Positions 3 through 12,802 of a DNA stretch of 22,075 nucleotides are shown piece by piece. How positions within the stretch are numbered: the first letter of the stretch is position 1; every line of letters begins with the position of its first letter. This DNA is from a virus: the IMG/VR virus record IMGVR_UViG_3300009785_000113, positions 1 through 22,075 of that record; one strand, written 5' to 3'. A program made the position numbers and the translations under genes. Under the pieces are notes generated by a model that saw only the letters and a program-made list of their open reading frames with translations, made no database searches and was not told the DNA's origin.

Positions 3-3000
3 ATTAATGGCAAAACTACTACTCCATTTAACTTTAATGTAAAAGTAGAAATACCAGAACAATACAAGTCATTAGATGGTTATAGGTTTACTGTACGTAA
101 AACCTCTAATGACTCTGACAGCTCTAAGATTGCTGAAGTAGTTGCGTTAACTGGTTGGAATGAAATTGAGAATTCAAAACAAGCGTATCCCCGTACTGCA
201 GTAATTGGTTATGCACTAAAAGCAGAAAATGAACATACGGGAGGAGTTCCTACCTTTACTTCTTTAGTAAAAGGATTGTTAGTCAAAGTACCTAGTAATT
301 ATAATCAACCTATTCTAGAAAATGGGGAAGTAGACTGGAGAGAGGTAGAAATACCTAGTAGCACTTTGACTAACACCGGTTATAGGTTACAAAAATCAGG
401 TACGGGTACAGTACTTACACAAGCTAATCCTCAGATATATGTAGGAGGCTGGGATGGTACTTTTGTATACTCTTGGACTCAAAACCCTGCTTGGATTCTT
501 TATGATATACTTACTAATAAAACCTATGGGTTAGGTATAGCAGAAGAAAACATTGATAAGTACAGATTTTATCAGGTAGCACAGTATGCAGACGCTTGTG
601 ATAGTAGTAGTGGCAACTTTATAGGAGTAACGGGTATGGCTGATGGATCTTTTAGGCATAAGCCTAGAGGAGAGTTTATCACTATACGAGAAAATCAAGT
701 AGGTCTTGGTAAAGGTGTTGTATTATCTGAGAGAAGGTTTGTAACTGACTTAACTATCTCTGCACAAGGACAAACTATAGATTTATTAAATTCTTTAGCT
801 GCTTCTATACGTGCGGCTGTTATATATGCTGGTGGTAAGCTTAGTTTAGCTGTAGATATGCCTGATGAGTTTCCTGTTATGTTATTTAATGAAGCTAATA
901 TTAAAGAAGGTACTTTTCAAATAGCTGGAACTAAAGAAAGCGATGTACTAACAGGCGTAGACGTAAGTTATATAGAACCAAGTAATCACTTTAGAAGAGA
1001 AGTAGTGCGTATAGATAGTGCTGATGCTAATGATGGCACTGATGCAGCAGAAATAGAAAACATAGCTAGCTTAGAATTACTAGGTGTTACCAGAAGAAGC
1101 CAAGCTATGCGTGCTGCTCAGTACCAAATAGCTGCAAGTAAGTATATGAGAAGAACTACTACCTTTACTACTGGTACAGAAGCACTTTATCTAAGTCCAG
1201 GCGATGTAATAGCTATTGCTAGTCAAGGTACTGGTATAGCTTATGGTTACGGTGGAAAAGTTATAGCTAATAGTGCTGTATCAGTAGGTACAGATACTAA
1301 CGTTACTTTAGAGCACTTTACAGTTCCCGGCCTAACTAATAATATTTTTACTAGCAATACATATCCTATAGCTTTAAGAGTTATAAGATCTGATAGTGAC
1401 CAGATGGATTTATTTATAGTAAGCAACACTAACTATGAATTGTTTAGTACTGGTAACGTAAGTACAGGTAGTGATACTGCTAATGTATCTGTAGTTGCAA
1501 GATTCAACCCTATAACTAAGAATCTAACTAGTCTTTCTGGTGCAGGATTACTAGCTAACGTAGCACCTAAGAAAGGTGATTTATGGAGTTTAGGAGAATT
1601 TGAAGATACTAGTAATTACTACACTAATAAATCAGGTAAGTTATTTAAGATAACAGATATAGGTAGAGAGCCTGAGCAAGAAGAGTTTACTATATCTGCA
1701 GTAGAATATATATCTAATATATATGTAGATTCAGATACATTTATAAACTATGAACCTACTGCTTATACCGATATAGACAGCCCCTTAAGTGTTCCTCCTG
1801 TTCCAGTAATTAATTTTAAAGCCGTACCTAGAAGAAGAATTGACGGCAGTATAGCAGTTGACGGGGTAATAGAAGAATCAGCTGATAAATTTGGTTTTGG
1901 TCAAACTTTTGCTACTATTTATGAACTTTCTAAACCCGATGAAGTGTTAACTGTAGAAGTTATTAATAACTCTTCTCCGCTTACTTTTAATGTATTTTCT
2001 ACTGCAGGTGTATCTAACGATACTGCTCCTGCTACTCTAGCGGGTAAAAACGGGTTTACGACTCCTATAGGTACAGTACGATTACTGTGTAATTCTTATA
2101 GCATAGTAGATACCGCAGGGGGTACTCTAACTGGTAATATACAGATGCAGGTAAACGGCCTACAAAACTGTTTTGACCGTAATTTTAATAAACATATTTT
2201 AGACGTAAATGATGGAGGGGTATTTGGAGACTTAAAAGGCTCAGATTATGTTACTATACCTGTTATAGAAAAGGCTAATACTGGAGCTTTGTTAGATTTT
2301 GTTGGTCATAACTCTAAGATTACAGAAATAGCAAGACAAATTACTGGATTTACTTCTTCGTCAAATATACTTAAACTAGAAAATACTCTTACAAACGGGG
2401 TAAATTTAGATCAAGTATTACCTGCTGCCCCTTTTTATATTGAAATAAACCAACTGTTAGATTCAAGATACTACAATAATAATAGCTTTTTTGTACAAGG
2501 TACTGAGTATATATATACTCAAGATGGAGAGCTAAACACTGCACAATCTACTAACTTTATAAATATCGATGTAAAACCTATAGCTAGCACTCTTGTAAGA
2601 TTAACTATTGACGGTATTGAGAAAAATAGTGGGCAGTACTCTATTAATGTTAATAGGGATCTTAACATTAAAGCAAACATAGCATATCCTGTTGCAGTTG
2701 GAGATGTCTCTTATCATATAGAAGTTGACCATTATACTACCCCTACCTTAGAAGTACAAGATACCATACAAGCTTATGCCGGTAATGTTTTTACTGTAAG
2801 TAGTACTACCTATGATCCTGCTAGTAGTGACTATAATGTAGCTATGACTGCTAATAGTGTATACAGAATAAGTTTAGCTAGTACTCCTAAATCTAATCTA
2901 AGTGGTGCTAGTTTTGTTAACGTATCTCCTAATCCTATTGGTACAATAAATAATGTAACAAGTAATTCTTTTACTTTTGACTATGATACTAGTGTCTATT

Positions 3001-5126
3001 CAGGACAGTTTAACTTAGCTAATAATAGGGTATATACTGTTAATATAGGTGAAGACTTCGATAGACTAATGATGACTAGTGATTTAACTATAAAAGATCT
3101 TGATTTAGGTATAACTACTATTAGAGCTAGAAATAAAAGTATTATGGGTAGAACTAGTCCTACTGTAACAAAAAGTATTGCAGTATCTTATATACCAATT
3201 CAAAGAGTTACTAACCTAGAAGTGCTAGAATCTTTATATAGAGAACAAACAGGAGGTGTTGCTGTAAGAAGCACTGTGCAGTTTACTCATATAACAAATC
3301 AAGATGTTACTGACTATGAGATATCGTATAAATTAGATAGTGTATTTGCTGTAGGAGATGATGATGGTGGCACAGACTTAACTTCTTATAATACCGTTAA
3401 AGTACCTGCTACAGGAGTTGATGCTGACGGTAAAATAAGATTTACAGTTAATAATGTAAACAGAGGTCAAGTATCAGGCACAAATGCAATTAATTTTAGA
3501 ATAACGCCTTTAAACAAGAGTATACGTGGTTCTACAGCTTATATAAGTAAGACTGTTATAGGTAAAACTGCCAAACCACAGCCTATATCTTCTTTTACCG
3601 CAGGGCAACAAGGTGAACAGCTTACTTTATTCTGGCAGTACGCCAGAGTGAATGGCGAACTAGCAGATATTGACTTAAAAGAAGTTGTATTTAGAAGAGC
3701 CCCAGGTAGTGTTGCTTATACTACTGAAAATTATATTGGTTCTGATCCCTTTGTTATAGTTTCTGCAGGCTCTGTGAGAAAATCTATACCTATTGATACT
3801 TTTGGAACATATACTTACTTAGCAAGAACTAGAGATACTAGCGGTAACTTTAGTGAAGAAGTTACTGGGATAACTTTAACTACTACAAAACCTCAAAGAT
3901 CTTCTACTGTTGCTGCATATAGCGAGGATTCTCCTAGTACGCAATTTGCCTCTATACCGAATAATAACGCTGCAGAGTATAATTTTCCCTCATTTGCTAA
4001 CTCAAATACAGGAGGTATAGCATATGCTTATACTTCTGCTGTAGATAATGCTAATGGAAGTTCTACGGGTTTTAGTGCTACGGGTAGTTTAAGTGACTTA
4101 CTTGCTACTGAAAGTGCAGAATATGTAACTCAGATTAGAGATTTTGGTTCTCAAGTTATTGGTTCTATACAGATTGACATTGAAGCTACACAAGAAATAC
4201 AAAGTACTTATAATGACCAGCATGAAGTATACTTAGAAAGTGTATCTGAAGCTTCTACTGTAACAAGTACCTTAGTAGATGTAGACTTTGGAGGTATAGG
4301 TCATATTTTAGGATTTGCCAATTCAGCTGTAGTAAATGGTAGATATGACTCACCTAATAAAACATGGATGACGGGTGGAGCAGCAGGAAATGTTTGGGGA
4401 ATATGGAATAAGGGTCAATATGTTGGGGATACCGCTAATGCTAATAGCTATTCACTAATAGCAGGGTTAATAAATGCTAATGCCATAGCTTTAGGAGAGA
4501 CCTACTATGCTAACGGTAATTCTACAGGATCTAATGCTTTTGCTAATGTAGTTACAGGCAGTGCTACATACAGTTTAGTAAACTTTATACAATATTCTGA
4601 TACTGCTCAGTTAACTTATGCAGGTGATTTAGGCGCTATATCTACACAAACATTTGTAAGAACTTCATCTTCTACTGACTTATTCTATGCTAATGGTAAT
4701 GTTGATATAAGTAAATTTGATGCATCTTCTACTAATGATGGTTTTATACCTTATGAGACAGGTACTAAAGCTTTTAGGTACTTCCAAATTAAATTTGATG
4801 TAAACAATACAAAGCCTGATGAATTTGACTTTACAATTGATAAGTTTAGATATACTATAGATAAAGAACAGACTGTATTCACTGATACTGTACTTTATAG
4901 CCAATCACCGCGAGTGCTTAGCTATGCAGATTCGGCGTTTACCACAAGACCTGTAATATCATACGCCGTCCTAGATTCAGTAAATTCAGAACAGAATCCG
5001 CCATTAGTAATAACTACAGCAGCTAATACTAATTCTGTATCTTTTAAATTACTTAATTCTCAAGGTTCTGGAGAATACGCTGCTAATAGTAGTGCTAACG
5101 TTATGATAACCATAGTAGGAGTATAA
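3..5126 (+). CDS. J: Tail tip / host-specificity protein, lambda J-like (5' end outside window)
   Basis: Central tail tip protein that forms the distal end of a siphophage tail and contacts the host receptor. The reading frame is open from position 3 to the TAA at 5124-5126, giving 1707 visible residues, already longer than lambda J (about 1130). The segment around 180-305, reading YPRTAVIGY, then a GG turn and LVKGLLVKVPSN, matches the conserved J core. Downstream, roughly 3200-3570 and 3570-3890 look like fibronectin type III-like beta modules. From about 3890 the protein is rich in Ser, Thr, Asn and Ala, as expected of a variable receptor-contacting end. A TTG at 276 could be read as a start, but the frame upstream encodes conserved J-type sequence, so the true start lies left of the window. 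The stop is 4 nt before the next fibre gene. The family call is strong; the receptor is unknown. Confidence 0.87.
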   Translation: MNGKTTTPFNFNVKVEIPEQYKSLDGYRFTVRKTSNDSDSSKIAEVVALTGWNEIENSKQAYPRTAVIGYALKAENEHTGGVPTFTSLVKGLLVKVPSNYNQPILENGEVDWREVEIPSSTLTNTGYRLQKSGTGTVLTQANPQIYVGGWDGTFVYSWTQNPAWILYDILTNKTYGLGIAEENIDKYRFYQVAQYADACDSSSGNFIGVTGMADGSFRHKPRGEFITIRENQVGLGKGVVLSERRFVTDLTISAQGQTIDLLNSLAASIRAAVIYAGGKLSLAVDMPDEFPVMLFNEANIKEGTFQIAGTKESDVLTGVDVSYIEPSNHFRREVVRIDSADANDGTDAAEIENIASLELLGVTRRSQAMRAAQYQIAASKYMRRTTTFTTGTEALYLSPGDVIAIASQGTGIAYGYGGKVIANSAVSVGTDTNVTLEHFTVPGLTNNIFTSNTYPIALRVIRSDSDQMDLFIVSNTNYELFSTGNVSTGSDTANVSVVARFNPITKNLTSLSGAGLLANVAPKKGDLWSLGEFEDTSNYYTNKSGKLFKITDIGREPEQEEFTISAVEYISNIYVDSDTFINYEPTAYTDIDSPLSVPPVPVINFKAVPRRRIDGSIAVDGVIEESADKFGFGQTFATIYELSKPDEVLTVEVINNSSPLTFNVFSTAGVSNDTAPATLAGKNGFTTPIGTVRLLCNSYSIVDTAGGTLTGNIQMQVNGLQNCFDRNFNKHILDVNDGGVFGDLKGSDYVTIPVIEKANTGALLDFVGHNSKITEIARQITGFTSSSNILKLENTLTNGVNLDQVLPAAPFYIEINQLLDSRYYNNNSFFVQGTEYIYTQDGELNTAQSTNFINIDVKPIASTLVRLTIDGIEKNSGQYSINVNRDLNIKANIAYPVAVGDVSYHIEVDHYTTPTLEVQDTIQAYAGNVFTVSSTTYDPASSDYNVAMTANSVYRISLASTPKSNLSGASFVNVSPNPIGTINNVTSNSFTFDYDTSVYSGQFNLANNRVYTVNIGEDFDRLMMTSDLTIKDLDLGITTIRARNKSIMGRTSPTVTKSIAVSYIPIQRVTNLEVLESLYREQTGGVAVRSTVQFTHITNQDVTDYEISYKLDSVFAVGDDDGGTDLTSYNTVKVPATGVDADGKIRFTVNNVNRGQVSGTNAINFRITPLNKSIRGSTAYISKTVIGKTAKPQPISSFTAGQQGEQLTLFWQYARVNGELADIDLKEVVFRRAPGSVAYTTENYIGSDPFVIVSAGSVRKSIPIDTFGTYTYLARTRDTSGNFSEEVTGITLTTTKPQRSSTVAAYSEDSPSTQFASIPNNNAAEYNFPSFANSNTGGIAYAYTSAVDNANGSSTGFSATGSLSDLLATESAEYVTQIRDFGSQVIGSIQIDIEATQEIQSTYNDQHEVYLESVSEASTVTSTLVDVDFGGIGHILGFANSAVVNGRYDSPNKTWMTGGAAGNVWGIWNKGQYVGDTANANSYSLIAGLINANAIALGETYYANGNSTGSNAFANVVTGSATYSLVNFIQYSDTAQLTYAGDLGAISTQTFVRTSSSTDLFYANGNVDISKFDASSTNDGFIPYETGTKAFRYFQIKFDVNNTKPDEFDFTIDKFRYTIDKEQTVFTDTVLYSQSPRVLSYADSAFTTRPVISYAVLDSVNSEQNPPLVITTAANTNSVSFKLLNSQGSGEYAANSSANVMITIVGV

Positions 5127-5130
5127 ACAT

Positions 5131-6324
5131 ATGGCTTTAACAGACTCAAATACATATATTGAACCTACAGCGGGTACAGCTCTTAACAGCGCAAGAGGGC
5201 AAATTAATAACTCTTTACGTTCTATACTAACTAACTTTAAATCTTCGTCTGCTCCTATAGCAGTTAATTTAAGTGCAAGCGGTGCTAACATAGGTGTACA
5301 AGATGGTATGCTGTATAGAAACGATACTAACAAAGCTTTATATATTGCCGACTCTACTAATGTTAAATCAGCCCCTGTAGGTGGTAATTTTACTCGCATA
5401 GGTTTGGGTAATAGAGTAGAAAATGGTATAACCGCTCTTACTGCTAATGCGGCTACCTACGAAATAGGTGAGCTTGTAGCGACAGTATCTGCTACTCCTT
5501 CTCTAGCAAGTAATTCTAGATTGTACTTAAATATTGCTAATAATAGTAATATGTCCGACTTTATTGATATAGGTATACCTCCAGCCTTATCCGTAGTTAA
5601 CACTATGATAGCAATAAATGGTGTTACAAGTGATAGAATTACCTTTAGAAATTTTGTAACTAACGGTAACTCAGGAGCTAATGCTCATTTAAAAGTAACT
5701 ACTACTGTAGGTAATAATACGGCAATAGCACTAGGGACATCTAATACTTCTTCTAATGTCTCATTAGTTAAGTTTGACGGTTCACAGGGTCAAGGTATTA
5801 ACTCAGGTATAAATATTATGGACCAAACAGGGGTAAATTATGCACCTCTATCTGCTAATATTATATCTCAAGCAACTATACAAGGTACTAATACTTCTGT
5901 ATCTCCTTTAGTGCCTGCAGGTAGTATAACTATTTGGCCTGGTGCTTCTGCTCCTGCTGGTTGGCTATTTGCTGACGGTTCTATTATTAGTAGAACTACT
6001 TATGCTGCTTTATTTGCAATTTGCGGTACTACTTATGGTGTTGGTAATGGTTCTACTACCTTTACGCTACCTGACTTTAGTGATAAAACTGCGGTAGGTG
6101 TAGGTTCTAATATTGCTAGAGGTGCTAAAGCTGGTGCTTTACCTTCTGGAGGAGCAATTACTACAGGCTCTGTAAGTACTGGTGTAAATCTTAGTTTCGG
6201 TACAGCTAGTACAGGTGTTAAAGATGCAGGTGGTCTAGCTGTAGCAACTTCGATAAATGATCCAGGCCACACACATGGCCTTGTTTTGCCATTTTTAGGC
6301 ATACATTATATAATAAAAACATAG
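5131..6324 (+). CDS. Tail fibre protein with C-terminal phage tail collar domain
   Basis: Probable fibre attached near the tail tip, 397 aa. Residues 1-60 form a short N-terminal segment resembling other marine phage fibres; the middle (about 60-260) is beta-rich and low in charge. Residues about 263-320 match the phage tail collar domain, with GSITIWPG, then APAGWLFADG and TFTLPDFSDKTAVG. The end carries a GHTH motif (379-382) followed by a hydrophobic LPFLGIHYIIKT tail; HxH pairs bind metal along the axis of T4 gp12-type trimers, so the same is inferred here. ATG at 5131 follows AGGAG (5117-5121) by 9 nt and lies just after the tail tip stop, so the pair is probably cotranscribed. Fibre role is well supported; ligand is not known. 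Confidence 0.85.
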   Translation: MALTDSNTYIEPTAGTALNSARGQINNSLRSILTNFKSSSAPIAVNLSASGANIGVQDGMLYRNDTNKALYIADSTNVKSAPVGGNFTRIGLGNRVENGITALTANAATYEIGELVATVSATPSLASNSRLYLNIANNSNMSDFIDIGIPPALSVVNTMIAINGVTSDRITFRNFVTNGNSGANAHLKVTTTVGNNTAIALGTSNTSSNVSLVKFDGSQGQGINSGINIMDQTGVNYAPLSANIISQATIQGTNTSVSPLVPAGSITIWPGASAPAGWLFADGSIISRTTYAALFAICGTTYGVGNGSTTFTLPDFSDKTAVGVGSNIARGAKAGALPSGGAITTGSVSTGVNLSFGTASTGVKDAGGLAVATSINDPGHTHGLVLPFLGIHYIIKT

Positions 6325-6333
6325 GGAAAAAAT

Positions 6334-6789
6334 ATGAAATATTATAAAGTAAATATAGATGAGATGTATCAAGAAAAGGTATTCTTTGAATATAGAGAAA
6401 TAACAGAAGAAACTAAAGGCCCTTTAGTAAGCAGAGCATTTAATTTAGATGCTTTAAGTAACTTAGAGCCTAAGTTTATGGAATTAGTAGCTGGTCCCAT
6501 AATCGGCATATACTATGAAGCCAGAGGTACTAATGAACATAGAGAAACTATTTGGTTGGACAAAAGAGATACTATTTCTGATGAAGATGCAGAATGGTTA
6601 GTGGCAGCTTGTGTAAGAGCCTGTATAGATAACGAGTGGGATGATTTACTTAAGCCGCCTACTGTAGACGAGCAAGTAGAAGACTTTATCAAAGAATTCT
6701 TTGATAATGAAGAAGATGAAAAGCCTTTAGAACAAAAAGATTTTTTAGCTGAGTTTTTTGCTGATTTAGAAAATGAAGAAGATACATAA
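6334..6789 (+). CDS. Small acidic protein of the tail fibre cluster, function unknown
   Basis: I do not recognise this 151-residue protein. It lies 9 nt after the collar-domain fibre and 19 nt before a second fibre gene, so a role as fibre accessory, assembly factor or small tail component is plausible but only by position. The first 100 residues look like a mixed alpha/beta domain. The last 40 residues are strongly acidic and contain two similar segments, DFIKEFFDNEEDE (117-129) and DFLAEFFADLENEED (136-150), which look like a duplicated acidic amphipathic helix. No signal peptide or membrane segment is visible. The ATG at 6334 follows AGGGA. It could be a chaperone that binds fibre subunits through the acidic tail, but nothing in the sequence proves it. 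Confidence 0.7.
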   Translation: MKYYKVNIDEMYQEKVFFEYREITEETKGPLVSRAFNLDALSNLEPKFMELVAGPIIGIYYEARGTNEHRETIWLDKRDTISDEDAEWLVAACVRACIDNEWDDLLKPPTVDEQVEDFIKEFFDNEEDEKPLEQKDFLAEFFADLENEEDT

Positions 6790-6808: not shown

Positions 6809-7900
6809 ATGGCTTTAACACGCGTAACATCATCAGTACTAGACGCTAATGCCGTTTCTGCAGAGAAATTGGCTAATTCTTCTATAGTTAGTAGGCACTT
6901 AGGTGATGCTGTAGTTTTATTACGTCACCTAGCGCCAGAAGCTAATCTAATTTCTGCTATTGCTGGAGTAACTACTAATACCAACTTACTTCAAACTAAT
7001 GTTAATGTAGTACAAACTAATGTAGCTGCAGCTATACTAACAGCTGCAGCTAATGATTTAGCAACTTATACTATTATTACCGCTAATGTTAATGTAGTAC
7101 AAAATAATGTAGCAGCTATCACAAGCGGTGCTACTGCTTTTACTGGTGAAGTAACTCTTAACGATGATTTAATAGTACAAGGCAATCTAACAGTTCATGG
7201 TGACAGTATTACTTCTAATAGTATAAACCAGATTATTAATGACCGAATTGTTATGCTAGCTAATAATGTAACCGGCACCCCTACAGCTGATGTAGGCTTC
7301 TTATTTAATAGAGGTAATCAAGGTAACGCAGCTATATACTATGATGAGGGAGAAAGGCAATTTACTCTTGCTGATACTCGTGACCCTGCTACTAATGTAA
7401 GTATACACCCTATAACTTATAGTAATTTAAAAGTAGGTATTGTGGAAGCTGCAGCCATAACTTCTACTGCTTATACTTATGGCGGTACGGATTTAACTAC
7501 TTTTATAAACACTAGAGCGGCTGCCGTAGCAAATGCTAATGACTTTATAACTTATACGCGACTTACTGCTAATGTTAATGCTGTACAAGGTAATCTAACA
7601 ACTTCTATGAATCAGGCTACAGCTAACACTAATTTAGTACAAGATAACGTAGCTGCTTTAACTAGTGGAGCGGTACTTCTAATACCCTTTACTAATACAA
7701 ATGTATCTACTTCGTCCTCTAATGTATACTTTATAGGTAAAAATGTGGCTAACTACGCTAATATAGTAAGTGTAACAGTAGATGGTATATATCAAGCTCC
7801 TGTTATAAATTACGTAGGCAACTTTTCTAACAACACGGTACAATTTACTGATGCTGCACTACCTGCAGGCTTAACCGTAACTATTACCTCGTTAACTTAA
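6809..7900 (+). CDS. Second tail fibre-like structural protein with repeated shaft modules
   Basis: A 363-residue virion protein, probably a trimeric fibre. The N-terminus (MALTRVTSSVLDANAVSAEK) is of the kind that opens many marine phage fibres. Repeated shaft-like modules follow: TNLLQTNVNVVQTNVAA (about 58-74), TANVNVVQNNVAAITSGA (91-108), TANVNAVQGNL (253-263) and TANTNLVQDNVAALTSGA (271-288). Their regular spacing of Val/Leu and Asn/Gln suggests coiled-coil or triple-helical stalk. Between them, about 110-215, lies a beta domain starting with GEVTLNDDLIVQGNLTVHG, a pattern seen in fibre shafts. The C-terminal 75 residues form another beta module. A good AAGGAG site precedes ATG 6809. The stop TAA overlaps the ATG of the radical SAM gene (TAATG). 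Which tail part it forms is unknown. Confidence 0.75.
   Translation: MALTRVTSSVLDANAVSAEKLANSSIVSRHLGDAVVLLRHLAPEANLISAIAGVTTNTNLLQTNVNVVQTNVAAAILTAAANDLATYTIITANVNVVQNNVAAITSGATAFTGEVTLNDDLIVQGNLTVHGDSITSNSINQIINDRIVMLANNVTGTPTADVGFLFNRGNQGNAAIYYDEGERQFTLADTRDPATNVSIHPITYSNLKVGIVEAAAITSTAYTYGGTDLTTFINTRAAAVANANDFITYTRLTANVNAVQGNLTTSMNQATANTNLVQDNVAALTSGAVLLIPFTNTNVSTSSSNVYFIGKNVANYANIVSVTVDGIYQAPVINYVGNFSNNTVQFTDAALPAGLTVTITSLT
6980..7672 (+). repeat. Repeated VQxNVAA modules inside the second fibre gene
   Basis: In-frame protein-level repeats at 6980-7030, 7079-7132, 7565-7597 and 7619-7672. Two copies (7079-7132 and 7619-7672) agree at 14 of 18 residues (TAN-N-VQ-NVAA-TSGA). They bracket the central beta domain, so the gene reads as stalk, beta domain, stalk, tip. 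Confidence 0.6.
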
Positions 7901-8886
7901 TGAGAAAATATAGACAAATAACTACAGAGCTAACTTTTAGATGTAATGCAGCTTGCCCTGCTTGTCATAGGCAAAAACCTTTACGTATAAATTTAAATGA
8001 TAAAAGACATACCATAACCTTAGACGAGTTTAAAAAGCTATTTTATCCAGAATTTCTTCAAAACTTAGAGTGGCTAGTATTGAATGGCAACTTTGGTGAT
8101 TCTATTATGAATAAACATTTTAGAGATATACTAAGATATGTTAAAGAACACGGTACTAAATTACTTATACACACTAATGGCGGTATTCATAATAAAGACT
8201 ACTGGACTGACGTAGGTAATATATTAGATAAGTTTGATATCATAAACTTTGACTTAGATGGTTTAGAGGATACTCACTCAAAATATCGTATAAACACTGA
8301 GTTTACTAAAGTTTTTGAAAATGCTTGTGCTGTTATAGCTACTGGAAGGCCTCAAGTTCATTGGAAATATATAGTTTTTGAACATAACAAACATCAAGTA
8401 GAAGAAGCTAGAGATAGAGCTATTAAAGCAGGCTTTACTACCTTTTCTACTGTAAAAACTTCTAGGGATACTTTTGCACCAAAAACTGGTGAGTTTGTTC
8501 ACAGTAAGAAAACAAAACAGTATAACGAAGCAGAGCGTAAAATACACTGTGTATGGGATGACTGGGGTAAATGGTATATATCTCCAGAAGGATTAGTATT
8601 TAGATGTTGCTGGACAGGTGGGCACTACTATGATCAAGGTGTAACTAGATTCTACTATCCTCCAGAATTTGAAAAACTATTTAATGGCTTTCATATACCT
8701 TTAGATACTATATTAGAATCTAACTACTGGCATAAATTGCGTAGTTTTTTACAGGGATATGAGCGCAGTTTTAAACTTTGTAAGTCTCAGTGCGGTAAGA
8801 TTGTAAGCTCTATAGAGAAAACAGAGTTAAATTTAAAGACTGGTGAGGTAACTATATTTGACTCTAGTAATCAAATGGGCAATTAA
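7900..8886 (+). CDS. Radical SAM enzyme with SPASM/Twitch-like C-terminal cysteines
   Basis: A 328-residue radical S-adenosylmethionine enzyme. The signature CNAACPAC supplies C15, C19 and C22 (CX3CX2C) for the 4Fe-4S cluster that cleaves SAM. Later core elements fit the partial TIM barrel: LVLNGNFGD (about 59-67), in the place of the usual GGEP-type segment, and LLIHTNGG (88-95). The C-terminal third adds C217, the pair C236-C237 in GLVFRCC, and C294/C298, the layout of SPASM or Twitch domains that hold auxiliary clusters. Many such enzymes modify peptides or proteins, others small molecules. The start codon shares a base with the stop of the fibre gene (TAATG) and no separate ribosome site is evident, so it is translationally coupled to a virion gene. 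The substrate is unknown; modification of a neighbouring structural protein is an inference from position. Confidence 0.82.
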   Translation: MRKYRQITTELTFRCNAACPACHRQKPLRINLNDKRHTITLDEFKKLFYPEFLQNLEWLVLNGNFGDSIMNKHFRDILRYVKEHGTKLLIHTNGGIHNKDYWTDVGNILDKFDIINFDLDGLEDTHSKYRINTEFTKVFENACAVIATGRPQVHWKYIVFEHNKHQVEEARDRAIKAGFTTFSTVKTSRDTFAPKTGEFVHSKKTKQYNEAERKIHCVWDDWGKWYISPEGLVFRCCWTGGHYYDQGVTRFYYPPEFEKLFNGFHIPLDTILESNYWHKLRSFLQGYERSFKLCKSQCGKIVSSIEKTELNLKTGEVTIFDSSNQMGN

Positions 8887-8936: not shown

Positions 8937-8974
8937 AAAGTTATTGCCAATTGATAATAAAAAAGGATAGATAC

Positions 8975-9655
8975 ATGAAAAAAGATGGACATGTAGACGT
9001 TGCTTCTTCACGAAGAATGTGTAAAACAATAATGGAAGATGCTAATGAGATTTTACAGGCTCTACCAGAAGACTCAGAATCAGAACTACCTACTTGGTGG
9101 ACTAATAAATTAGCTGTATGCTCAGCTTACGTAAATTCTGCAAGAGACTATTTAGTTTATAGTAACTCTTCTACAGAAGAAGACACTGACGATATTATAG
9201 AAGATACTGCTATGACGGCAACTTATGTATCTAGCGATGATGAACAGGTAACTGTTGGTGAGTACACTACTAGACATTTTGATATGTGTCCCACAGCTGT
9301 AGAACTATATACAAATATAGACGATAAAACTGATATGATTCATCTAGTAGTTGAATCAGCTATGCTACAAGATATGCTATTTAAAATAGAAAAACAAGCT
9401 ATAGCTATGGACAAAGCTGATGACGATATGGTAGTTAAAGCTCAACATTACGCCGACATGATAATGGATATAGCAGAGCAGATGCAGCTTGTTGATGAAC
9501 ACTATTATATAGAAGATACTCACATGGCTAAGATTAGAGAGTTAGCAGACAATACTACTGTTGAATCTCTAAATGTGATAGAAGATACTAGTGATTATGA
9601 TATGCTACCACCTTCTGCACGAATGGTTAAGGAGCAACAGCTTGCCAATTCGTAA
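8975..9655 (+). CDS. Acidic helical protein of the virion gene cluster, function unknown
   Basis: I do not assign a function to this 226-residue protein. The frame can be extended to a TTG at 8951, but ATG 8975 is preferred because AAAGGATAG lies just upstream and a promoter candidate ends at 8936. The N-terminal part (VDVASSRRMCKTIMEDANEI, about 8-27; then PTWWTNKLAV and SARDYL, to about 60) resembles, from memory, a conserved hypothetical protein of marine phages. The middle is acidic (TEEDTDDIIEDT), and residues 105-195 appear to be long helices. No membrane segment or signal peptide is seen. The 3' end overlaps the next small gene by 14 nt and carries that gene's ribosome site. Confidence 0.75.
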   Translation: MKKDGHVDVASSRRMCKTIMEDANEILQALPEDSESELPTWWTNKLAVCSAYVNSARDYLVYSNSSTEEDTDDIIEDTAMTATYVSSDDEQVTVGEYTTRHFDMCPTAVELYTNIDDKTDMIHLVVESAMLQDMLFKIEKQAIAMDKADDDMVVKAQHYADMIMDIAEQMQLVDEHYYIEDTHMAKIRELADNTTVESLNVIEDTSDYDMLPPSARMVKEQQLANS

Positions 9656-11035: not shown

Positions 11036-11184
11036 TGATTGCTTCAGAGGTTTTTCAGCGTTCAATGCTAAAAACAACTAAAAATAAGAAGAAGCCTGCA
11101 AGGGCTTCTTCTAAATCTACAACTGTTAAAAAACCTGTTAAAAAGATAAAAAATCCATCAAAAAGACTTAATAGAGTTTACTAA
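11035..11184 (+). CDS. Lysine-rich 49-residue protein at the end of the rightward arm
   Basis: A short frame beginning at the ATG of TAATG (11035-11037) and ending with TAA at 11182-11184. After MIASEVFQRSMLK the sequence is a run of Lys, Ser, Thr and Pro (KNKKKPARASSKSTT, VKKPVKKIKNPSKR). Such composition suggests a disordered polycation that could bind nucleic acid or acidic protein. Support comes from the coupling pattern, shared with the two genes upstream. Its last 27 nt overlap, on the opposite strand, the 3' end of the methyltransferase-like gene. Translation is likely but unproven. Confidence 0.5.
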   Translation: MIASEVFQRSMLKTTKNKKKPARASSKSTTVKKPVKKIKNPSKRLNRVY

Positions 11185-11694
11185 GTTTTTTAGCCAAGTT
11201 TTATCATAAGGCGCACATATCATTACCTGCGCTGCACTAGTATTAATAATTTTTGATATAATACTAGCGTGATCTACATCAACACTTACAAAGATTAAAT
11301 CATCCATAGTAAGATATGAGTAGTCATATTCTAAAGCATCCATACATTCAATTTTTATAGCTTCTTTAGCTGGGCTAGCTTCAATAAGTTTTTTACTTAT
11401 TTTTGCTCTACTACTATCTATTTCTATACCAATTTGTTTTATTTCTGGATTTCTTCTATGTAGATCAAACATAGAATATGGGTACATACCACTACCTATA
11501 AGAATAACTGTAGGATTTTTATCTAACTTAGATAGTTGTTTTTTATCACGTAAAGTACGTAGTATCCAAGCATTTCTTTCTGCTTTTTTATAAGCCAAAC
11601 CTAAATCTTGTTTAGCATATAACTTAAGTAGCGTTATCTCATTTTCCGCTACCATATTTTTCCACTTAGTCTCTTCTTTATCTATATCAGCCAT
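11158..11694 (-). CDS. Rossmann-fold SAM-dependent methyltransferase-like protein
   Basis: A 178-residue protein with a class I methyltransferase-type core: a helical N-terminal part (1-58), beta strand and loop VILIGSGMYP (63-72), an acidic end of the next strand (IGIEID, 88-93, likely binding the SAM ribose), CMDALEYD (117-124), and the strand DDLIFVS (131-137). The overall pattern recalls small nicotianamine-synthase-like methyltransferase folds, but no acceptor site is recognised. The frame extends to an ATG at 11736, yet ATG 11694 is preferred because it overlaps the glycosyltransferase stop as ATGGCTGA, the same junction type seen at PhoH/nuclease. As last gene of the leftward operon, paired with a glycosyltransferase, it may decorate a sugar, DNA or small molecule; the substrate is unknown. 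Its 3' end overlaps a convergent gene. Confidence 0.62.
   Translation of the reverse strand: MADIDKEETKWKNMVAENEITLLKLYAKQDLGLAYKKAERNAWILRTLRDKKQLSKLDKNPTVILIGSGMYPYSMFDLHRRNPEIKQIGIEIDSSRAKISKKLIEASPAKEAIKIECMDALEYDYSYLTMDDLIFVSVDVDHASIISKIINTSAAQVMICAPYDKTWLKNLVNSIKSF
11160..11191. terminator. Possible bidirectional terminator at the convergent junction
   Basis: An A5 tract (11160-11164) and ACTTA (11166-11170) pair with TAAGT (11182-11186) and a T5 tract (11187-11191), with G11165 bulged and an 11-nt loop. On either strand the stem ends in a U-run, as expected for a two-way terminator between converging genes. The stem is nearly all A-T, so it would be weak. It overlaps the stop codon of the lysine-rich gene and adjoins that of the methyltransferase-like gene. 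Confidence 0.35.
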
Positions 11695-12802
11695 TGTGAA
11701 TTTTTGTGATGACACGCGCTGACTCCTCTGCCCCATTTATTTTAAAATTAAACTTATTGGGTTTTTTTGTAAGTACCTCGGTTAATACTTCTGACAACTT
11801 ATAAAACTCTGAGTTATTAAGTACTTTAAAGAAGTTATAGGGCTCAAAAACGTAAGCTCTTACAAACTGTTCCATCTTTCTACCACTTTCTCTAGGTATT
11901 ATTATAGAAGGTATCTGTCCTTTAAGTATCTCAGTAGTAGCATTATAACCTCCGTATGTTATATACGCTGCACAATGTTTTAACTTCTCTCTTAAATTAG
12001 GAATATAGTCTACTAAATACAGATTATCTTTTTTACCATTCTTAGTACTCATATACCTATTAGCTACTGGCATAATAAAATCATATTCAGTAAAGTCTTT
12101 AGCTATTTTCATTATATGTTTAAATAACAATACACCCTCCTGCTTATTGAGTCCTGTACTTACAAATATTTTATTGCTGTTACCTATATGTTCTTCTGAC
12201 TGCTTATTATCACATACATATCCTGTGTAATATAATTTATCTTTAATATGTTCTACAATCTGCCTACTATTAGCATGTCTATGTCTATCTGCTATAAGCG
12301 GTAAAATATTTTCATCACCATGAACTAATACTGCTTCTGCATAGTACTTACATATAAGATTTTGCGTATAACTAACCCAATCTTGTAACTGATTATCATG
12401 AGGTTCATCCCATGGAAAATCACGTACAGATATTATAATTTTTATATTTCTTTTCTTACATTCTTCAAAGTATCTGATATACTCATGAGCAAACTGGTGT
12501 CTACAGAAAGGGAATCCTTCACAAACAAGTGTAGTTATTTTTTTATCATCTAATACTTCTATAAATTTTTTTATTCTAAAATTAATAAGATTCTCAGACA
12601 TAATAAACTGAAAAATGCTACCATCGTTAGGAACTTTATAATTCTTCAGAAAAGATACATGCTCAACCTCATACTGTAACGGGGGTTGAAACAGCTGATC
12701 AATAATAATAACATCATTGTACTTAGCTGTCTCTTCGGCAATAAATTTAGTTCTCTGGCTATGTCCTAGGCCTTGATAGTATTGCGTAAGAAAAGCTATC
12801 AT
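11687..12802 (-). CDS. GT-B fold glycosyltransferase, MurG/GT28-like (COG4671 type)
   Basis: A 371-residue predicted glycosyltransferase. The N-terminal Rossmann half has the glycine loop QGLGHSQR (10-17) near residue 10, as in MurG-like and COG4671 proteins, and ISVRDFPWDEP (124-134). The C-terminal half begins with IFVSTGLNKQEG (212-223) and contains the nucleotide-sugar binding signature YITYGGYNATTEIL (280-293) followed by GQIPSIIIPR, very like MurG and UDP-sugar transferases. No transmembrane segment or signal peptide is seen, so it acts in the cytoplasm. Donor and acceptor are not readable. In phages such enzymes modify DNA bases or surface glycans; either is possible. It overlaps the methyltransferase-like gene by 8 nt and lies 9 nt after thyX. 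Confidence 0.78.
   Translation of the reverse strand: MIAFLTQYYQGLGHSQRTKFIAEETAKYNDVIIIDQLFQPPLQYEVEHVSFLKNYKVPNDGSIFQFIMSENLINFRIKKFIEVLDDKKITTLVCEGFPFCRHQFAHEYIRYFEECKKRNIKIIISVRDFPWDEPHDNQLQDWVSYTQNLICKYYAEAVLVHGDENILPLIADRHRHANSRQIVEHIKDKLYYTGYVCDNKQSEEHIGNSNKIFVSTGLNKQEGVLLFKHIMKIAKDFTEYDFIMPVANRYMSTKNGKKDNLYLVDYIPNLREKLKHCAAYITYGGYNATTEILKGQIPSIIIPRESGRKMEQFVRAYVFEPYNFFKVLNNSEFYKLSEVLTEVLTKKPNKFNFKINGAEESARVITKIHNG

Follow-up and report, generated by a model that had tools for sequence, protein, structure and literature searches.

Two radical SAM genes as fixed parts of the tail module in a lineage of uncultured marine lambda-like siphophages

Why would a phage encode a radical SAM enzyme directly behind a gene for a fibre-like structural protein? 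This question is raised by a 22,075-nucleotide stretch of viral DNA (IMG/VR record IMGVR_UViG_3300009785_000113, positions 1 to 22,075; hereafter called the window) in which the gene for a fibre-like protein of 363 amino acids, fib (6809-7900, plus strand), is followed by a gene with an ATG start for a radical SAM enzyme of 328 amino acids, rSAM1 (7900-8886, plus strand). The putative fibre role of fib is suggested by its position and repeat-rich sequence, and its product has no match in Pfam or PHROG. An earlier note on this DNA had called the two genes translationally fused and proposed that the phage modifies its own fibre or another structural protein during late expression, with a metabolic role placed there by chance as the alternative.

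The assignment of rSAM1 to the radical SAM superfamily made in that note was confirmed by a profile search against PHROG 21308 "radical SAM" (E 5e-28), by weak matches to Pfam PF04055 (E 4e-4, 21 bits, below the Pfam cut-off of 29.5) and to several NCBIfam radical SAM/SPASM models, every one scoring below its curated cut-off, and by a Foldseek search with an AlphaFold model (mean pLDDT 69, with a poorly modelled auxiliary domain of low confidence). The top fold match was BlsE (4e-7), MoaA was found at 6e-6, and SkfB, SuiB, and anSME were also recovered, while a PDB sequence search returned no sequence relative at the thresholds used. The protein combines this profile and fold likeness to the radical SAM barrel with a CX3CX2C motif near its N-terminus (C15/C19/C22) that is invariant in 77/77 orthologues. 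Five further cysteines at positions 217, 236, 237, 294, and 298, all exactly where the earlier note had placed them, are each invariant in the same 77 orthologues, unlike C143, which is not conserved.

The label "SPASM-like" is better replaced by twitch-like. The residues C217-X13-G231-X4-C236 and, further on, C294-X3-C298 are invariant and form a twitch signature (CX9-15GX4C plus a distal CXnC), which is also a partial SPASM signature; the seven-cysteine SPASM set (CX9-15GX4C-CX2CX5CX3C-C) is absent from rSAM1, which has CX13GX4C, C237, and CX3C only, and the Pfam SPASM model scores E 0.06 and 14.1 bits against a cut-off of 21.5. This cysteine pattern would be explained better by a single auxiliary cluster, as in twitch enzymes, than by a complete SPASM domain. 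Like the twitch enzymes BtrN, BlsE (its best fold match), and MoaA-like proteins, rSAM1 has the CX3CX2C core and one C-terminal auxiliary domain of the form CX13GX4C...CX3C, but the known substrates of BtrN, BlsE, and MoaA, which have a single auxiliary cluster, are small molecules, and the genes of these enzymes belong to biosynthetic clusters, whereas rSAM1 is a core gene of a tail operon. With the SPASM peptide maturases anSME, PqqE, SuiB, SkfB, and AlbA it shares the radical SAM barrel, the partial signature, and the fold matches to SkfB, SuiB, and anSME, but it is without the seven-cysteine set, scores far below the NCBIfam cut-offs (the best RiPP or peptide maturase model, TIGR04317, gives 48.5 bits against 380), and no RiPP precursor was identified. 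We rejected the identification of rSAM1 as viperin (NF038283, 22.7 bits against a cut-off of 180) and as MoaA, NirJ, AhbC, or AhbD (21/284, 26/515, 26/650, and 19/500 bits versus cut-off, respectively).

The junction of the two genes is a TAATG stop/start overlap (7898-7902, plus strand). As the earlier note had described, the enzyme begins in the fibre stop codon, with the ATG of rSAM1 using the last A of the TAA at 7898-7900; the genes overlap by one nucleotide, however, and are not fused. The same 1-nt overlap is present at 67 of 76 readable junctions (64 TAATG, 2 TAGTG, and 1 TGATG), and the genes lie within 8 nt of each other at the others. Promoter-like sites were no commoner than expected by chance in a promoter scan.

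IMG/VR holds at least 127 relatives of rSAM1, and in all of the best 80 that we took for comparison (73-78% identity) the gene order is gpJ-collar-orf151-fib-rSAM1-orf226-orf211-orf70, followed by convergent methyltransferase-like, glycosyltransferase, ThyX, dCTP-deaminase-like, and exonuclease genes, each as far as the contigs extend. In the window, the upstream part of this series consists of a gpJ-type central tail fibre or host specificity protein (276-5126, plus strand; PF13550 E 6e-18, PHROG 31 E 3e-68), whose reading frame is open at the 5' edge so that position 276 is merely the first start codon listed, a tail collar-domain fibre protein (5131-6324, plus strand; PF07484 E 1e-21), and orf151 (6334-6789, plus strand). 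The first gene 3' of rSAM1 is orf226 (8951-9655, plus strand), with the conserved N-terminus KDGHxDVASSRRMC...LPTWWTNKLA. Further downstream, a conserved overlapping pair encodes a methyltransferase-type protein (nicotianamine-synthase/CntL-like) and a conserved glycosyltransferase (Glyco_tran_28_C, at 11687-12802) on the minus strand (11158-12802), convergent to the tail operon, and a strong terminator-like hairpin (11087-11112) lies between the convergent gene sets. The gpJ of a 72-kb relative (L101:1568-7966, 2132 amino acids) has an apparent intein-like insertion near its N-terminus.

The pairing with the fibre was also found when it was not sought via rSAM1 itself. With orf151 as an independent query and 80 loci, all 64 of the 64 loci that read past the fibre carry rSAM1 (68-100% identity), and the other 16 stop inside or before the fibre. 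rSAM1 is therefore an obligate core gene in this lineage of lambda-like siphophages, which are marine and uncultured. Conservation of the fibre-radical SAM pairing across phages was the check that the earlier note had proposed, and because the pairing is kept in 80/80 close relatives and in 64/64 orf151-found loci, its alternative of placement by chance is rejected. Such synteny within one phage lineage is evidence of a core gene and says nothing of the substrate.

rSAM1 is under strong purifying selection. No other protein of the segment is as well conserved, with a mean pairwise identity for rSAM1 of 0.79 compared to 0.42 for the fibre, 0.52 for orf151, 0.70 for ThyX, and 0.75 for the exonuclease; 185 of its 328 columns are at least 95% identical (12 of 363 for the fibre), and its median dN/dS is 0.053 (0.136 for the fibre). 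The fibre, by contrast, belongs to the most rapidly evolving proteins compared, ranges from 214 to 863 amino acids in length among relatives, and has no contiguous conserved peptide among the relatives compared. In a mirror-tree analysis of distance covariation, its divergence tracks that of rSAM1 least of all neighbours.

These results bear directly on the idea that rSAM1 is a maturase specific for the C-terminal portion of the neighbouring fibre. The slot behind a phage fibre gene is often used by a fibre chaperone such as lambda tfa, and such a role would agree with this habit and with the adjoining genes and their conserved 1-nt overlap. But the fibres of three relatives (L001-L003, 215 amino acids) have only some 73 N-terminal residues in common with the fibre of the window and entirely different C-termini, while their enzymes are 77-78% identical, and neither an invariant fibre peptide nor excess covariation was found. 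Because the fibres vary while the enzyme stays about 78% identical, the fibre C-terminus is disfavoured as a sequence-specific substrate; judged from these alignments the fibre is unlikely to be one, and we consider a dedicated fibre maturase very improbable. The earlier suggestion of the fibre as substrate is thus not upheld. Better candidates are the N-terminal 70 or so residues of the fibre, the repeated tail peptide of orf151, or a conserved protein of the tail, for instance gpJ or gpL.

According to its sequence and predicted structure, orf151 has a folded N-terminal domain, well modelled but without a match in a fold search, and an acidic C-terminal tail with two copies of the motif DF[IL]xxFF. 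One to three copies of this invariant motif are found across 84 distinct orthologues, and 20 of the 25 near-invariant columns fall in this tail (residues 103-144). The motif is a possible docking motif or substrate peptide; short motifs repeated in a gene close to one for a radical SAM enzyme could recall multi-core precursor peptides, by analogy, and a docking motif is equally possible. As a specific rSAM1 partner, the orf151 tail initially scored a partial r of 0.39 (p 0.001), but this lead was dropped because exonuclease and ThyX, unrelated slow genes, gave equal values, and the distance-covariation test singled out no specific partner among the neighbours of rSAM1.

A second radical SAM gene, rSAM2, is located upstream in the same tail operon. 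We first met it in a 72-kb relative (contig 3300005512_000016), where it encodes 395 amino acids and begins at the end of the minor tail protein gene. The preceding gene encodes gpL (TIGR01600, PF05100), and the following genes encode NlpC/P60-type K proteins. The protein is of the N-twitch type (NF033640, N_Twi_rSAM; 348 bits, cut-off 170), and Pfam SPASM matches its N-terminal cysteine domain at residues 5-72. The same relative encodes a third radical SAM protein as well, which has a B12-binding domain and whose gene (L099:16690-18300) is close to those of other enzymes. All four long relatives that we examined (4/4) have rSAM2, as do at least 541 stretches in IMG/VR, and in each of the 80 loci taken for context its place is between L and K to the extent that the contigs reach. 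In 50 of these 80 loci (L111-L190) there is no ATG near the conserved start, and the nearest usual start is a TTG within the gpL gene, 18 codons before the first conserved cysteine.

One contig (3300031622_000012, L173) overlaps the first 2534 bases of the window with 2529/2534 identities and has the gene order M-L-rSAM2-K-K-JAB-like-I-J, with rSAM2 at L173:5001-6167, just 5' of the window; the virus of the window itself therefore has rSAM2. A profile search confirmed nine long rSAM1 contigs, rSAM1 is present in 14 of 25 rSAM2 contigs while the other 11 apparently end before its site (from coordinates), and contigs spanning both places carry both genes. The module resembles the lambda tail-tip module M-L-K-I-J in its gene order and in a gpL-type C-terminal cysteine domain, the pattern of which is kept in gpL of these phages, but the lambda module is, to our knowledge, without a radical SAM gene. 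Lambda gpL holds a surface [4Fe-4S] cluster without known function (PMC10721106), and that rSAM2 might act on gpL is a guess. That rSAM2 shares the tail operon with rSAM1 favours a tail-building role, and it makes the finding more interesting than the earlier note had it.

Outside the lineage, annotated phage isolates have distant relatives of rSAM1 only. The nearest named ones, from Campylobacter Firehammervirus (CP220 and F379) and from Pelagibacter phage Mosig, are 24-26% identical to it across 60-71% of its length. Unlike rSAM1, which is a single obligate gene, these lie in multi-gene metabolic clusters among aminotransferase, carbamoyltransferase, amidinotransferase, and sugar-nucleotide genes, and the authors of the CP220 study regarded its radical SAM module as exchangeable and probably non-essential (PMC2853527). 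A search for rSAM1 in bacterial genome contigs gave one unrelated-looking Vibrio match (25%, profile not significant), and in 398 genomes from its phylum we found two distant relatives, of which the first lies within a housekeeping region and the second next to a sugar-kinase-like gene. In cells, NF033640 genes are rare (2 of 398 genomes above cut-off) and, while belonging to the same family as the phage genes between L and K, stand in apparent polysaccharide export and modification clusters: one is surrounded by genes for an O-antigen-type ABC exporter, rmlC/rmlD-like proteins, and methyltransferases (L273) and the other lies beside sugar-nucleotide and glycosyltransferase genes (L274), with the neighbours identified from sequence. 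The polysaccharide export cluster of the former has a tandem array of N_Twi_rSAM-like genes (L273:4235-11143), one of them apparently joined to an ABC-transporter ATPase. None of the papers covered by a literature search describes a radical SAM enzyme of a phage that acts on proteins of the virion.

Because of these sugar and metabolic neighbours of cellular NF033640 genes and of distant phage relatives of rSAM1, a sugar or other small-molecule substrate is a serious alternative, as chance placement is not. In the form that we weighed, rSAM1 and rSAM2 would modify a nucleotide-sugar or glycan destined for the virion or the host surface, e.g., to block superinfection, and the conserved glycosyltransferase at 11687-12802 could be a partner of both enzymes. 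Twitch enzymes such as BlsE, the fold match of rSAM1, act on sugar-containing small molecules. Besides the polysaccharide-type clusters around the cellular N_Twi_rSAM genes, host-recognition clusters of pelagimyophages carry radical SAM cassettes together with LPS genes (PMC7029224). However, neither enzyme adjoins the glycosyltransferase, each stands single among tail genes in every relative, and phage glycan cassettes usually vary, while rSAM1 and rSAM2 are never absent and the former is under strong constraint. We regard a glycan-directed role, the chief rival reading, as rather unlikely. An ordinary auxiliary metabolic gene for a cofactor or nucleotide step (MoaA-, heme-, or QueE-like), with late transcription as incidental, is improbable: weak likeness to MoaA, NirJ, AhbC/AhbD, and QueE-like models would agree with it, and viral radical SAM genes are often labelled in this way, as in 261 "ahbD" calls among Baltic viruses that their own authors termed speculative (PMC9301287), but such NCBIfam matches lie far under the curated cut-offs, partner genes of these pathways are not evident beside rSAM1, and the position and overlap of a gene that is never missing are fixed across the lineage.

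Our best reading, to which we give a probability of roughly 45%, is that rSAM1 modifies a protein associated with the tail, or a group that such a protein carries, during assembly and that rSAM2 does so for another tail-tip component. The fold neighbours that modify peptides (SkfB, SuiB, and anSME) would count for protein modification, as far as the model goes. Against it speak BlsE as top match of that model, given what single-cluster enzymes of known function act on, the polysaccharide clusters around cellular kin of rSAM2, the mixed metabolic and host-recognition clusters around distant phage kin of rSAM1, covariation without a specific partner, and the low confidence of the modelled auxiliary domain. 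Of the earlier proposal that the phage modifies a structural protein late, a role in tail building is likely in view of the conserved pairing and of rSAM2, but not the fibre as substrate.

In this reading of tail-protein modification, rSAM1 is probably produced late, as part of the tail operon and coupled in translation to fib, and most likely uses a 5'-deoxyadenosyl radical together with one auxiliary Fe-S cluster; its target would be a tail-associated protein, or a group on one, while tails assemble. rSAM2, with its different N-twitch architecture and its place between L and K in the same operon, probably acts on another tail-tip component. That both enzymes, each encoded in the tail operon behind a structural gene, use radical chemistry to introduce changes such as crosslinks, epimers, or methyl groups into tail-tip and fibre-associated proteins before phage exit is a tentative and somewhat doubtful extension.

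Radical SAM genes of phages are usually regarded as loosely attached metabolic cargo. In the present lineage, which is represented by hundreds of viral contigs, two such genes have a fixed place in the tail module, and the strong constraint on rSAM1 suggests that it helps to build or arm the virion. We know of no phage in which a tail protein is modified by radical SAM chemistry; if a tail protein is indeed the substrate, this would be a form of virion chemistry new for phages.
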